Of a stretch of 64,000 nt of DNA, positions 27,848 through 32,028 are shown piece by piece; positions within the stretch are counted from its first letter, which is position 1; every line of letters starts with the position of its first letter. The notes under the pieces were generated by a model, which saw only the letters and a list, made by a program, of their open reading frames with translations, was not told where the DNA came from and did no database searches. The position numbers and the translations under genes are program-made. Origin of the DNA: Phycisphaeraceae bacterium D3-23 (lineage in GTDB: Bacteria; Planctomycetota; Phycisphaerae; Phycisphaerales; Phycisphaeraceae); assembly GCA_039555135.1 (NCBI GenBank), contig CP114179.1, positions 3,348,001 to 3,412,000 of the forward strand, written 5' to 3'.

Positions 27848-28330
27848 ATGAGCAAGACGACCTACACCGCGCAGACTCACTGGCAGGACCGCTGGAACGA
27901 ACCGACGGTCGAGCAGCTGCTTGCGCCGATCAAAGAGACCCACCGCAAGGCGATCGACAGCATCATGGCCGGGATGGAGGCCTACGAAGGCGTCGATAAG
28001 CAGGTCGTCTGGTCCGGCCAGGGCTGGCAGTGGACCATCGAGTACTCGCTCGAAGGCCATCACACGTTGGGCCCCGACAGCCCGGACGCGATGGCGTACA
28101 TCATCCCCGACCCCGAGCAGCCCGTCCTCGCGATCCCACTCAAGGACGAGCAGATCGAACAGATCCCGCTCCGCCGCGTCAACCGGTTCATCCGCGACCA
28201 GCTAAGAAGCGCCAAGTGCCCGGTCGAACTCCACTGGTGCAAATGGACCCCCAGCGCCCAGACCGAAGTCGACCACATCATGGACCTCTTCAAACGCAAG
28301 TGGAAGATCATGACGGGGAAGAAGCGGTAA
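27848..28330 (+). CDS. Hypothetical protein
   Basis: The chosen ATG gives 160 residues starting SKTTYTAQTHWQDRWNEP; ATGs at 27743 and 27810 would lengthen it, and none has a clear ribosome-binding site. The sequence is soluble-looking, with a WSGQGWQWTIEYSLEG core and a basic C-terminus (LFKRKWKIMTGKKR). The pattern of Trp and short strands resembles DUF3788-like proteins, but this is a guess. A GTTTAGCCG repeat begins three bases after the stop and probably terminates it. Confidence 0.6.
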   Translation: MSKTTYTAQTHWQDRWNEPTVEQLLAPIKETHRKAIDSIMAGMEAYEGVDKQVVWSGQGWQWTIEYSLEGHHTLGPDSPDAMAYIIPDPEQPVLAIPLKDEQIEQIPLRRVNRFIRDQLRSAKCPVELHWCKWTPSAQTEVDHIMDLFKRKWKIMTGKKR

Positions 28331-28332
28331 TT

Positions 28333-28362
28333 GTTTAGCCGCCGCCCATCGGGCGGCGCGTT
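28333..28362. repeat. Single GTTTAGCCG palindrome arm
   Basis: GTTTAGCCGCCGCCCATCGG then GCGGCGCGTT: one hairpin arm of the paired element at 4080. It lies between two convergent genes, so it may work as a terminator for both. Confidence 0.65.
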
Positions 28363-28366
28363 CGCG

Positions 28367-29038
28367 TTAGATCAACTGCAGGACCGAGCGTAACGCCATG
28401 CCGACGGCGATCGTTGCGCTCGGCACCGCGATCATTAACAATAAGCAGCCCTTGCTCCCCGGCAGATCGTCGAGCTGTGACGCTTTGACCTTCCCGCCCG
28501 CATCGCGGACGCGGACCAGCACTTCTTCTTCGATTTCGGTGTAGTTGCCTTCTTCATCCATCTCAGGATCAGCGTAGTCGTAGCCGGTGAGCGCCTTGGC
28601 GACCTGGACGGGGATGTCGAAGATGTAGTCGACCTGGGGTCTTTCCGCGTCGAATTGTGCCTGCTCAGCAAACAAACCATCGCGTATCGACGCGAAGCAA
28701 TCGGGGAGGTCTCCCTCGGTTTCGAGGTGCTCGATGCCTTGCTCGGAGTCGTGCGTGATGCGCCAGGTACACTCGCCTCGGGACCATCCCGTCGCGATGC
28801 TGACCATGACGTTCTCTTCGACGGAGCACGCGACCGCTTGCTCGCCCGGCACCGTGGGTAGTTCGGTGAGATCGCCTCGGCCGGACAGCACGACGTACCA
28901 TCCGCTGGGCATCGCATAGCCGAAGTACTCGGAGTCATTTGTTTCGGCCTCGGCTGTGCTGACGGCCAGCCCGAGCAGGTCGAGGAGTTCTGCTTTCGAG
29001 CGGTCTTGAACCGCGACCCAGGAAAGCGATGCGCCCAT
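28367..29038 (-). CDS. Hypothetical protein with C-terminal membrane segment
   Basis: The 223-residue product has an acidic, soluble-looking body with Trp-rich strands (GYAMPSGWYVVLSGRGDL, RGECTWRITHDSEQGIEH). A segment at about residues 195-215 (GCLLLMIAVPSATIAVGMAL) could cross the membrane. I recognise no domain. Middle Glu-rich spacers (DEEGNYTEIEEEVLVRVRD) suggest a flexible linker. Confidence 0.5.
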   Translation of the reverse strand: MGASLSWVAVQDRSKAELLDLLGLAVSTAEAETNDSEYFGYAMPSGWYVVLSGRGDLTELPTVPGEQAVACSVEENVMVSIATGWSRGECTWRITHDSEQGIEHLETEGDLPDCFASIRDGLFAEQAQFDAERPQVDYIFDIPVQVAKALTGYDYADPEMDEEGNYTEIEEEVLVRVRDAGGKVKASQLDDLPGSKGCLLLMIAVPSATIAVGMALRSVLQLI

Positions 29039-29215
29039 GTGTGGTGCCCTTGATCATTGCTCGTACTTACGAAGTGCTTTGCATCCCGTTTGTTTGCGGT
29101 CGAGCGGTGGGTGGATCATCGTCAAGCGTTGTTACGGCGCTACAATTACATGGCCAGTCGGGTTGGGGCTGGTCGCTTCGTCTACCACACACGGTGGCAC
29201 GTCATACCAAGGGTC

Positions 29216-29632
29216 TCAGCCGTACGAAGTCTCGAGATCATGCCAACGTCCACGGTTCGCCATGCGATCGATTTGGTGTGCCGGGGCAAACACGACACGC
29301 AACGAGAAACCAGCCGCTGAGGTGCGCTCCATCCCTGCATACACCGGGACACATGTAGCGACGGCCACAGGCGCATGAGGAAAGCCAAGAGGCTGGGGTA
29401 CATGATTGACTTTGTAGCCCGTATCCACCGTTTTGCTGTAGGCGAGCCCGTAGACCGTCGCGATCGCCAGGCACCAGATGAAACGATGCGCGAGCCAGGC
29501 CGCGCGTCTTCGATACGGGTGCGGTTCGCTCCGAAAACTCTTCGTGTCGCCGGGGTCAAACGCGCGGCCGCACTCCGGGCAGCTGCTGCTTTCCAGCTGC
29601 GCCAGCGGGTAGGTGCACTGTCTGCAATACAT
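29216..29632 (-). CDS. Small zinc-ribbon membrane protein
   Basis: The 138-residue product has an N-terminal zinc ribbon with four Cys: YCRQC and SCPECGRAFDPGD. One membrane segment near residues 48-66 (AHRFIWCLAIATVYGLAYSK) follows. GAGG lies just before the ATG. The layout (CxxC...CPECG then helix) matches other zinc-ribbon membrane proteins in this window at 48434, 50646 and 61304. Function unknown; the ribbon suggests a protein or nucleic acid contact on the cytoplasmic side. Confidence 0.6.
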   Translation of the reverse strand: MYCRQCTYPLAQLESSSCPECGRAFDPGDTKSFRSEPHPYRRRAAWLAHRFIWCLAIATVYGLAYSKTVDTGYKVNHVPQPLGFPHAPVAVATCVPVYAGMERTSAAGFSLRVVFAPAHQIDRMANRGRWHDLETSYG

Positions 29633-29729
29633 GCGATTCCCTCGCCGGCTGCGGGAGCCCTGCGCCGCAGCCGGGTTCCATCGTAGGGGATCGTGGGGTT
29701 GAAATCTACAATGAATGACGGGTTGGCTC

Positions 29730-29757
29730 TTGACCTATGCCGTGATACGCCGATAAT
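29730..29757 (+). promoter_or_regulatory. Near-consensus sigma-70 promoter
   Basis: TTGACC at 29730-29735, a 16-base spacer, then GATAAT at 29752-29757. Each box matches five of six consensus bases. Start expected near 29764. No open frame of quality follows; a structured region and a terminator do. Confidence 0.6.
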
Positions 29758-29763
29758 CCAAGT

Positions 29764-30094
29764 GTCGAGCGCGACGCGGCTGAGCCCAGGCGGGAGAACC
29801 CCGAACCAGTCGGCCTCCGGAACCTCGACCGACCGTTGGCCAAACTGTTTGGCATGGCGGGCGTTGTGGCCGACGGAGACGTCGTCGGCCTTCAATCCTC
29901 CGGCGCCCCGTTGTATGCGGGGGACGGCTGGTCAAGCCCCTTCCCGAAAGCGAGGTGATCCAGTGTCTGACTGTTATCCGTGTAGGAACGGGGTGCGTTA
30001 GCTCCACTCGACGGAGCGGACGCTAAGTCCGCGCCCCGGAACACGAGACCCTACGGCTCCTGCCCCCCAACCGGGGGTGGGAGTCTTTTCTTTT
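29764..30094 (+). ncRNA. Putative structured non-coding RNA of about 330 nt
   Basis: The unit lies between the promoter at 29730 and the terminator at 30057, with no supported gene on either strand. Local helices are visible: GCCAAAC / GTTTGGC (29839-29853), GGCCGACG / CGTCGGCC (29868-29890) and a long-range GGGGTGCG / CGCGCCCC (29990-30037). The last encloses small hairpins (GCTCC/GGAGC, GCGGAC/GTCCGC). The size is close to tmRNA or RNase P RNA, but I could not find their conserved cores, nor an SRP core. Open frames here lack recognisable domains. The family is not identified. Confidence 0.45.
30057..30094 (+). terminator. Rho-independent terminator after the putative RNA
   Basis: CTCCTGCCCCC / GGGGGTGGGAG pairs over 11 positions, two of them G-T wobbles, with loop CAACC. 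TCTTTTCTTTT follows. There is no upstream plus-strand protein gene, which supports a non-coding unit. Confidence 0.75.
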
Positions 30095-30144
30095 GCAAGG
30101 GCGGGAGTCGGTGCGGGTGTAAACTGGTTCTTATCACAGGACCC

Positions 30145-30240
30145 GTGGGGCAGACATTCCTGTCTGCCATCCGGCGCAGCCGGAACATCCCCCAACCGAT
30201 TCGGCCTTCGGCCGATGGCAGACAGGAATGTCTGCCCCAC
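30145..30240. repeat. GGCAGACATTCC element (intergenic)
   Basis: GGGGCAGACATTCCTGTCTG at the left and GGCAGACAGGAATGTCTGCC at the right frame 96 bp with a GC-rich centre. Ends match 20563-20663 closely. Confidence 0.75.
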
Positions 30241-30264
30241 GTTTCTACGAAAGGAAGCCCCGCC

Positions 30265-30648
30265 ATGCAGTGCCCGAAATGTAGCGCCGAAATGAAGACG
30301 CAGGCCGTCGATGGGATCGAGGTCGATCAGTGCACCGGCTGCGGGGGGATGTGGTTCGACCTGCGCGAGCACGACCGCCTGCGGGAGAAGGGCGGCAAGG
30401 CGGTCGCATCGCTCGACTCGGGCGACCGCGCCAAAGGCGCGGCGAACAACGAAGAGCGCGACATCGACTGCCCGCGCTGCGGCGTGCAGATGGTTAAGCT
30501 CGCCCACCACGAGCAGACGCACATCCACTACGAGCAGTGCGCGACGTGTGGCGGGGCGTACTTCGATGCCGGGGAGTTCGATGACCTGCGCGAGCTGACG
30601 CTGGGCGAGCGTGTGAAACGCCTGCTGCCGGGGCTGCGTCGCGGGTAG
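30265..30648 (+). CDS. Double zinc-ribbon protein (TFIIB-type zf)
   Basis: The ATG follows AAGGAAG and gives 127 residues; an upstream GTG extension would translate the repeat. Two similar zinc ribbons: residues 1-40 (QCPKCSAEMKTQ, CTGCGGMWFD) and about 72-108 (DCPRCGVQMVKL, CATCGGAYFDAGEF). Each has CxxC...CxxC, typical of zf-TFIIB single- or double-domain bacterial proteins. The C-terminus is basic. Function unknown. Confidence 0.8.
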   Translation: MQCPKCSAEMKTQAVDGIEVDQCTGCGGMWFDLREHDRLREKGGKAVASLDSGDRAKGAANNEERDIDCPRCGVQMVKLAHHEQTHIHYEQCATCGGAYFDAGEFDDLRELTLGERVKRLLPGLRRG

Positions 30649-30765
30649 ATCGGCTTTGGCCCGTGTGGTGCCCGGGGTGGAGCGCCGCGAACCCCCGGAA
30701 CGATTCTGTGTGCGGGGTGACAGGGTCTGACACCGGCGAGGCGCGGCGTGTGCTAGATTGCCCGC

Positions 30766-31995
30766 ATGCCCGAATCGACACAGGCCACCAGCGAAATCGC
30801 CGATGCCGCGACGCGCGCGATGCTCGCGCTGGTGTTGACGCACGGGCTGGGGCCGCGCCTGATCGCAAGGGCGGTCGACAAGTGCGGCTCCGCGATGGGC
30901 GTGCTGGGTGCGACGGCGGCGACACTTGGCGAAGTCGAGGGCATCTCGAAAAAGAACGCGGGCAAGCTCAAACGCGCGATCGACGACGCCGCGGCTCCGG
31001 GCGGCGCGGCCGAGCGCGAGCTGGCGCTGGCGGCGAAGCACAACGCGGCGGTGGTGGCGATCGATGGGCCGGGCTACCCCGCGCTCCTGAAGGTGATCCC
31101 CGACGCGCCGCCGGTGCTGTGGGTGAAGGGTCGGTTGTCGGCGGACGATGCGCTGTCGCTGGCGATCGTCGGGTCGCGCAAGTGCTCGCACTACGGCCGG
31201 GAGCAGGCGGACCTGATCGCCAACGGGCTCGCGCATGCCGGGGTCACGGTCGTGTCGGGCGGGGCGTACGGCATCGACATCGCGGCGCACGAGGGCGCGC
31301 TCCGCGCGGCCAAGGGCGGCGCGGCCGCGTCGGGTGGGCGGACGGTTGCGGTGCTCGGTTCGGGATTAGCGAAGCCATATCCATCCGAACATGTTGGTCT
31401 ACTGCGTGCGATCGTTGAAGAGGGCGGTGCATGCGGCGCCGTAGTGAGCGAGTTCCCGATGCTGACCGAGCCGAGGCCCGAGAATTTTCTGCGCCGAAAC
31501 CGCATCATCTCCGGGCTGTCGCTGGGCGTGCTCGTTGTTGAGGCGGGCAAGCGCAGCGGCGCGTTGAGCACGGCCAGGCGCTGCGTCGACGAGCACGGGC
31601 GCGAGCTGATGGCGCTGCCCGGCCGGGTCGACTCGGCGTATGCGTTCGGCTGCCACCAGATCATCCGCGAGGGCTGGGGCCAGCTCGTGACGGGGGTGTC
31701 AGACATCCTCGACGTAATCGGCGGTGAGGCGCCGATGCTGGATGCGGCGCGTGAGCTGTGCGCGACGCCTGATTCTGATGCGGCGGCGCTGTCCTCGAAG
31801 CGGGCGACGGCGTCGCCGATGCAGGCGAGCCCCGAGTCGCAGAAGATTTTAGAGACGCTCGATGAGCCGAGGTCGCTCGATGAGATCGCCGCATGGACGG
31901 GGCTCGCCGCCGGGCAGGTTCAGGGCGAGCTGACGATGCTCGAAATCCGCGGCGCGGTGAAACGGCAGGGCGGACTGTTCGTGCGTCGGCGGTAG
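30766..31995 (+). CDS. dprA: DprA, DNA-processing protein A
   Basis: DprA binds incoming single-stranded DNA in transformation and loads RecA. The 409-residue product has an N-terminal HhH/SAM-like region, a Rossmann core with ALSLAIVGSRKCSHYG, VVSGGAYGIDIAAHEGAL, VLGSGLAKPYP and ENFLRRNRIISGLSLGVLVV, and a C-terminal winged helix (LDEIAAWTGLAAGQVQGELT). Its presence is common and does not prove competence. It stands alone, followed by a paired repeat. Confidence 0.95.
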   Translation: MPESTQATSEIADAATRAMLALVLTHGLGPRLIARAVDKCGSAMGVLGATAATLGEVEGISKKNAGKLKRAIDDAAAPGGAAERELALAAKHNAAVVAIDGPGYPALLKVIPDAPPVLWVKGRLSADDALSLAIVGSRKCSHYGREQADLIANGLAHAGVTVVSGGAYGIDIAAHEGALRAAKGGAAASGGRTVAVLGSGLAKPYPSEHVGLLRAIVEEGGACGAVVSEFPMLTEPRPENFLRRNRIISGLSLGVLVVEAGKRSGALSTARRCVDEHGRELMALPGRVDSAYAFGCHQIIREGWGQLVTGVSDILDVIGGEAPMLDAARELCATPDSDAAALSSKRATASPMQASPESQKILETLDEPRSLDEIAAWTGLAAGQVQGELTMLEIRGAVKRQGGLFVRRR

Positions 31996-32028
31996 GGGAA
32001 AATGCCGGAAATGTGGCGCATCTGTTTT

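Follow-up and report, generated by a model that had tools for sequence, protein, structure and literature searches.

A very probable, hitherto unnamed RNA gene of Phycisphaerales with a putative micro-ORF behind an extended Shine-Dalgarno sequence

Analyzing the window, i.e. the whole 64,000-nucleotide stretch of contig CP114179.1 of Phycisphaeraceae bacterium D3-23, we found that one stretch is very probably a real RNA gene, hitherto unnamed, that is spread across a single bacterial order, the Phycisphaerales. The RNA, of about 330 bases, is folded and carries a reading frame of about 12 codons (Table 1). A sequence-only reading had proposed that the stretch is a structured RNA gene equipped with both a promoter and a terminator; the present analysis supports this proposal, and the element falls below every Rfam gathering threshold. 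The TTGACC-16-GATAAT element, considered one of the best sigma-70 matches of the window, scores 10/12 and is the better of two promoter-like sites within 28000-32000, the interval that the ranking covers (shuffles, 0.3 +/- 0.6). TTGAC was found upstream of the RNA in 18/18 listed loci, and a relaxed full promoter pattern was present in the matching upstream stretch of 76/136 relatives as compared with 3/136 shuffled stretches, the TTGAC/GATAAT-like promoter of relatives lying ~230-290 nt ahead of the GTG. From the sequence, we infer that the RNA is transcribed from its own promoter. The terminator hairpin, described before as an 11-bp stem, is present and comprises 13 pairs (30055-30085) followed by TTTTCTTTT.

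Table 1. Features of the RNA gene and their positions in the window.
Feature	Position	Strand	Basis
Promoter: -35 TTGACC, 16-nt spacer, -10 GATAAT	29730..29757	+	recurs in relatives
P1: GUCGAG (29764-29769) with CUCGAC (29824-29829)	29764..29829	+	by eye, 17 relatives
P2 hairpin (CCG...CGG), then linker GGGCGUUGUG	29833..29860	+	position in window; counts in relatives
P3 hairpin GGCCGACG/CGUCGGCC, GACG at 29878-29881	29868..29890	+	covariation
P4: CCGGC (29900-29904) with GCUGG (29927-29931) around a variable hairpin	29900..29931	+	covariation
Extended Shine-Dalgarno GAGGUGAUCC, interrupted AAAG upstream	29947..29961	+	complementary to 16S 3' tail
Micro-ORF GTG...TAG, MSDCYPCRNGVR	29963..30001	+	comparison of relatives
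P6a: GGGGUGCG (29990-29997) with CGCGCCCC (30030-30037)	P6 29990..30037	+	covariation in 72 relatives
P6b inner hairpin, GACG (30010-30013) just 3' of the stop	within 29990..30037	+	relatives
Intrinsic terminator: stem of 13 pairs, then T tract	30055..30094	+	sequence

A DNA search of 61 genomes (its own and those of relatives) found the RNA in congeners, with 84% identity over 349 bases in G002, and its conserved core also in other genera and families; common to the relatives is a layout of promoter, conserved blocks, the core GAAAGGAGGTGATCCAGTG, hairpin and terminator. The sequence-only reading had staked its claim on conservation and compensatory base changes in relatives, and both were found: covariation is seen in P2, P3, P4 and P6, and a covariance model built on the central part of the RNA (R1; 28 sequences, 132 positions) matches 188/301 genomes of the order Phycisphaerales in 113/147 genera. 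Under the strict filters used, 113/301 genomes of the order, some of them incomplete, gave no match, and two matches were found in three genomes only. The presence of the RNA in most sampled genera of the order, nearly always as a single copy, suggests that it is likely important. Outside the order, R1 detected nothing at E<=0.001 in 40 genomes of the phylum, including 10 that belong to the class (best, 0.0014), and pattern matches were by eye mostly unlike the Phycisphaerales RNA. By eye, two weak loci there (L338 and L343) have an SD and a micro-ORF, with a GACGGG hairpin past the stop. In two small-genome relatives (L315 and L326), the SD and the GACG hairpin are kept with a different ORF of 22 codons and an ATG start. 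A planctomycete of another family (G193; L050, ~1250-1550) carries by eye four tandem Lys-rich micro-ORFs of ~9-11 codons, e.g. MKKGKGPKK and VKKGKGCSPKK, each preceded by an SD-like stretch.

The single-sequence fold of the stretch is mildly better than shuffles (z -2.5), and the structural evidence therefore rests on the relatives, whose sequence comparison demonstrates both the structure and the conservation of the RNA. The helices pointed out before are present, GGCCGACG/CGTCGGCC being P3 and GGGGTGCG/CGCGCCCC being P6a. P1 encloses by eye an inner stem and a hairpin, CGGG-AGAA-CCCCG (29791-29803). Pairing of P2 was scored as 482/568 pairs (shuffled mean 348, maximum 375 of 500) over the 71/136 loci matched by a pattern that fixes the first pairs, the window not being among the 71. 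GACG lies within the P3 hairpin in 25/28 rows (counted by eye), and P4 cells were paired to 86.6% in 28 sequences and to 99.5% in 100 sequences whose alignment was fitted to the model. P3 and P4 together were 81.7% paired in the 28 sequences, with 42 double changes as compared with 15.2 +/- 3.0 upon shuffling; here and below, shuffles ignore relatedness and the relatives are not independent. In the set of 100, of which 96 were not used in model building yet were aligned to the model and hence lean toward it, 92.1% of P3 and P4 cells were paired (shuffled, 77.4%) with 146 double changes (shuffled, 32.4 +/- 4.6), while the slid control yielded at most 49.2% paired and 30 double changes. Mutual information over 95 loci, computed without structure on an alignment fitted to structure, ranks P3, P4 and the inner P4 stem at the top (P4 outer pairs 46-180 and 47-179, inner stem 55-58/124-127) and finds nothing that pairs with the conserved UGU-GAC-UGU segment, invariant columns giving no signal. 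The 5' strand of P6a is the end of the micro-ORF. In 72 relatives with a GL peptide and a recognisable P6 (set A3, in which the window is not a row), P6 was 88.4% paired with 89 double changes as compared with 32.2 +/- 8.8 upon shuffling and with at most 47.0% and 27 in the slid control, and the GACG loop of P6b was identical in 72/72 rows. P6 of the window was equated by position and by eye in its congeners, which keep P6a; L005, for example, carries A-U at a pair that is G-C or G-U in others. A pairing of GACGGCUGG with CCAGUGUC that would place the SD in a loop was dropped because GCUGG covaries with the upstream CCGGC (P4) and some relatives lack CUGG.

Downstream of P4, the RNA carries an extended SD. 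Given that the 16S rRNA of the window's genome ends ...GGCUGGAUCACCUCCUUUC (read at L368), GAGGUGAUCC, which in many relatives reads AAGGAGGUGAUCC, can pair with the free 16S tail. Measured against this same 16S end, exact runs of at least 11 nt were found in 118/136 relatives. For comparison, 289 ATG/GTG triplets were sampled on the + strand of the window, most of them not real starts, and the longest run in the 20 bases preceding them was 7 nt. A GUG follows the SD at ordinary spacing. A second 16S-antisense stretch, CCUACGGC, corresponding to the 5' strand of helix 45, is located at 30050-30058 ahead of the terminator and is the segment that most often matches the helix 45 antisense. Matches of at least 8 nt to the antisense of the helix 45 region occur in 34/135 relatives and in 5/135 shuffled sequences, and this segment could recur through shared ancestry.

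The view that no protein is supported between promoter and terminator has to be revised, as comparison of relatives supports the 12-codon ORF, and the RNA would apparently be coding in part. The consensus of the micro-ORF across the order is about MxxCDCT[KR]GL[RH]x, with peptides such as VTNCDCTKGLHA, VINGDCTKGLRS, VKNCDCTKGLRR and similar ones in relatives, and its length is usually 10-14 and up to 33 codons. A Gly codon is in frame with the start in 82/84 anchored loci at spacings of 18, 21, 24, 27 and 90 nt; this frame test was done on unselected loci, the anchor being not found in 52/136, and the two exceptions (L251 and L319) still end soon. The in-frame state of set A3 is not independent evidence, as the set was chosen for GL peptides. 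Stops interchange (TAA 63, TAG 38 and TGA 37 in 138 readings), and in L324, L328, L299, L327, L332 and L295 the start has moved or has become ATG or TTG while the frame is maintained. Together, the conservation of frame, stop and start through insertions and deletions points strongly to translation of the micro-ORF. The ORF rows were reduced by score cuts from 146 loci to 138 (stop and codon counts) and 136 (frame, SD and Cys counts). The cuts left out L236, L295, L297, L299, L313, L327 and L332, in which the ORF had been misplaced, as well as L324 and, at the higher cut, further loci; ORFs were later located in L236, L295, L299, L332, L327 (the last by eye) and L324. L315 and L326 are misread within the 138 rows.

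In the 95 micro-ORFs carrying the motif, the motif Cys codons are TGT in 122/122 cases (88/88 and 34/34) and Asp is GAC in 65/66, while all 136 ORFs together hold 165 TGT and 24 TGC. Given that the GL codons sit in P6a and that the Cys and Asp codons are near-fixed, selection on the peptide and selection on the RNA are inseparable, and part of the peptide conservation stems from RNA constraints.

The genes adjoining the RNA differ from genus to genus (neighbours compared in 18 and in 27 loci), and the nearest downstream ORF lies on the opposite strand in 13/27 loci, as called with a simple script in 27 of 29 loci (L364 and L365, in which the pattern missed the RNA, were left out). The variable neighbours and the frequently opposite downstream ORF indicate that the RNA is a stand-alone gene. 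A metal-transport permease gene (PF00950) was found upstream of the RNA on the same strand within 2 kb in at least 18/71 genomes (75 searched, 4 of them without a listed RNA place), i.e. in at least 14/24 of family f2 and at least 4/6 of family f5. Elsewhere the linkage was seen in 0/41 among the matches listed, with one f6 genome having the gene at 7 kb, and in the window's genome permease and RNA are 487 kb apart; the linkage may be inherited synteny. Downstream of the RNA, the window encodes by eye a small protein bearing CxxC motifs in pairs (30145-30648) and a DprA-like protein (30766-31995), the gene cluster of the latter being common only within the window's genus among the 18 loci compared. 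The interval from the RNA to the next gene holds a long imperfect palindrome (30145-30240; GTGGGGCAGACATTCCTGTCTGCC ... GGCAGACAGGAATGTCTGCCCCAC) that is reminiscent of a hairpin of mobile or REP-like type.

We propose, at what we regard as an even chance, that the RNA is a free-standing, ribosome-responsive gene of Phycisphaerales in which translation of the micro-ORF remodels the 3' structure and which acts in trans. In this proposal, the 5' domain of P1-P4 would lead to the extended SD that pairs with the free 3' tail of 16S rRNA and captures 30S subunits with high efficiency; the GUG-started micro-ORF, its stop, the GACG-loop hairpin and the terminator follow in this order. Translation would open P6a, whose 5' strand is made of the final codons, and the terminating ribosome would be positioned against P6b. 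The conformation of the RNA, its lifetime or protein binding via the GACG hairpins would thereby be set by ribosome supply or by decoding of the early UGU codons. Because no neighbouring gene is constant, the output, either RNA or micropeptide, would work in trans. A ribosome-dependent RNA switch of this kind becomes testable in cultivable bacteria.

The main rival of the ribosome-responsive reading holds that the product is the micropeptide itself, of 10-33 amino acids and often Cys-containing, with the 5' domain serving as a regulatory, aptamer-like 5' UTR. The conserved frame, start and stop agree with this possibility, as do the presence of Cys in 121/136 ORFs, several of which show CxC, CxxC or Cys-rich forms, and the lineage-specific site downstream of the PF00950 permease. 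We nevertheless consider it rather unlikely, given that the motif Cys codons are invariably UGU though the 27 long ORFs of the window favor UGC (44 UGU, 101 UGC) and that codons 2, 3 and 12 are highly variable. Moreover, a peptide of 12 residues is still inside the exit tunnel of the ribosome when translation ends. Were the RNA a non-translated regulatory or ribosome-binding RNA, its SD-like stretch would occupy the 16S tail as a decoy or hibernation factor and the ORF would be a by-product. The long complementarity to the 16S tail and the excess of helix 45 antisense matches over shuffled sequences speak for such an RNA, whereas starts that move with the frame kept, interchanging stops and in-frame changes of length speak against it, and the second 16S segment is found in a minority only and is perhaps inherited; this alternative is distinctly improbable.

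A cis-acting leader or attenuator of a downstream gene might be expected from the Cys codons before a hairpin, the stop at the hairpin and the terminator, all of which are attenuator-like, and a DprA-like gene does lie downstream in the window's genus. Yet no conserved same-strand downstream gene of the sort that a leader or attenuator would have was found in the 18 and 27 loci, the downstream gene varying by genus and frequently being on the opposite strand, and the sole recurrent linkage across families among the matches listed, in two families only, is to the upstream transporter; we thus see very little chance of cis action. That the RNA might be a divergent form of a known RNA or a new class had been left undecided. 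The former, i.e. a divergent tmRNA, RNase P RNA or 6S RNA, finds some basis in the similar size, in the tag ORF of similar length in tmRNA and in the genome's lack of a detected 6S RNA (no match at E<=1, with a model that matched just 6/14 control genomes). The genome, however, encodes tmRNA (G000:C1:490184-490572, 165.6 bits) and RNase P RNA (G000:C1:3956308-3956779, 246.6 bits) elsewhere, the RNA has its own SD and start, ARAGORN called neither a tRNA nor a tmRNA in the window, and the Rfam scan of the window returned no family, SRP RNA included, at the gathering score, the RNaseP-T model reaching 12.1 bits with a gathering score of 60. A divergent known RNA is accordingly hardly credible.

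The nearest described family is CC2171 (RF01867), an alphaproteobacterial sRNA, which gave the best weak Rfam match in a 501-base stretch (22.9 bits against a gathering score of 75; E 0.0074), owing to GAAAG.GAGGUGAUCCAGUGUCU. Eight relatives scanned with Rfam reached the threshold of no family, the best CC2171 score being 37.0 bits at L015, still below 75. CC2171 and the Phycisphaerales relatives have the core AAAGGAGGUGAUCCAGUGUCU in common. Where CC2171 has a 7-bp helix between CAUUGUC early in the ORF and GACAAUG ahead of the terminator, the window reads GACUGUUAUC, 2/7 model pairs being non-standard in the alignment, and the covarying enclosing helix of the Phycisphaerales RNA, P6a, is placed differently. 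The 18-mer AAAGGAGGTGATCCAGTG occurs in at least 117 stretches of the genome collection as compared with about seven by chance (estimated from the collection size), the matches listed being mostly alphaproteobacterial. In the alphaproteobacterial loci, as in the Phycisphaerales RNA, the same SD is followed by a short GUG-started micro-ORF, which begins VSHCHQP..., VSYTKRCHLAGIAR or VSRVILERGVGTVGGFVF and has interchanging stops, and early codons pair with a segment ahead of a terminator (the terminator by eye). With the groups defined by peptide, codons 3-5 of VSH-type loci pair 7/7 with a pre-terminator segment in 31/43 (shuffled, 7/43). For the 42 loci whose peptide is of the Rhodobacteraceae type, pairing is possible between the SD and a stretch further downstream (mean z -2.08, 21/42 below -2). 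Unlike the Phycisphaerales RNA, the alphaproteobacterial RNAs seem by eye to have short 5' UTRs and no P1-P4 domain, and their peptides are dissimilar. The two resemble each other in layout, with common descent as a possibility. Copies of the alphaproteobacterial SD and micro-ORF type are also seen in contigs of the viral collection (L197, L198, L199, L203 and L207). The alphaproteobacterial RNA often lies near an ArfB-like ribosome-rescue gene with a GGQ motif by eye (L082, 89-716, and other Rhodobacteraceae loci; gene cluster 4, 19 loci).

The passages that mention CC2171 in Rfam 15 (PMC11701678) and in a Mesorhizobium list (PMC5596092) give no function for it, and a literature search found no description of the Phycisphaerales RNA among the matches listed. 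Arguing against translation of the micro-ORF, a Caulobacter ribosome profiling study describes intergenic ncRNAs, which may or may not include CC2171, as not translated (PMC4117421). We see a slim chance that both RNAs belong to an old class docking on the free 3' end of 16S rRNA by the tail segment and, in some members, the helix 45 antisense segment, with the micro-ORF reading out 30S supply or state and with long Phycisphaerales and short alphaproteobacterial CC2171-like forms.

Among other known systems, tmRNA is likewise structured and harbors an ORF of about ten codons within it. It differs from the RNA described here in that the latter has its own SD and start codon and no called tRNA-like domain, and in that the window's genome has a separate tmRNA. 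Dual-function and small coding RNAs, such as SgrS and Pos19 of Rhodobacter, are also stand-alone RNAs with a small ORF; here, the ORF has only ~12 codons and lies within a conserved multi-helix RNA behind an SD spanning the 16S tail. Leader-peptide sensors of the CutF type share a small Cys-containing ORF whose translation would open a stem-loop, CutF being described as an exported protein with control over the neighboring cutO (PMC9973294), whereas the ORF here is far shorter and has no constant downstream gene. The Phycisphaerales RNA joins a domain of several covarying helices to a micro-ORF after an exceptionally long SD. Its core of SD and micro-ORF is also found in Alphaproteobacteria, for which CC2171 is the closest named sRNA family, and some RNAs filed as non-coding may therefore be translated.
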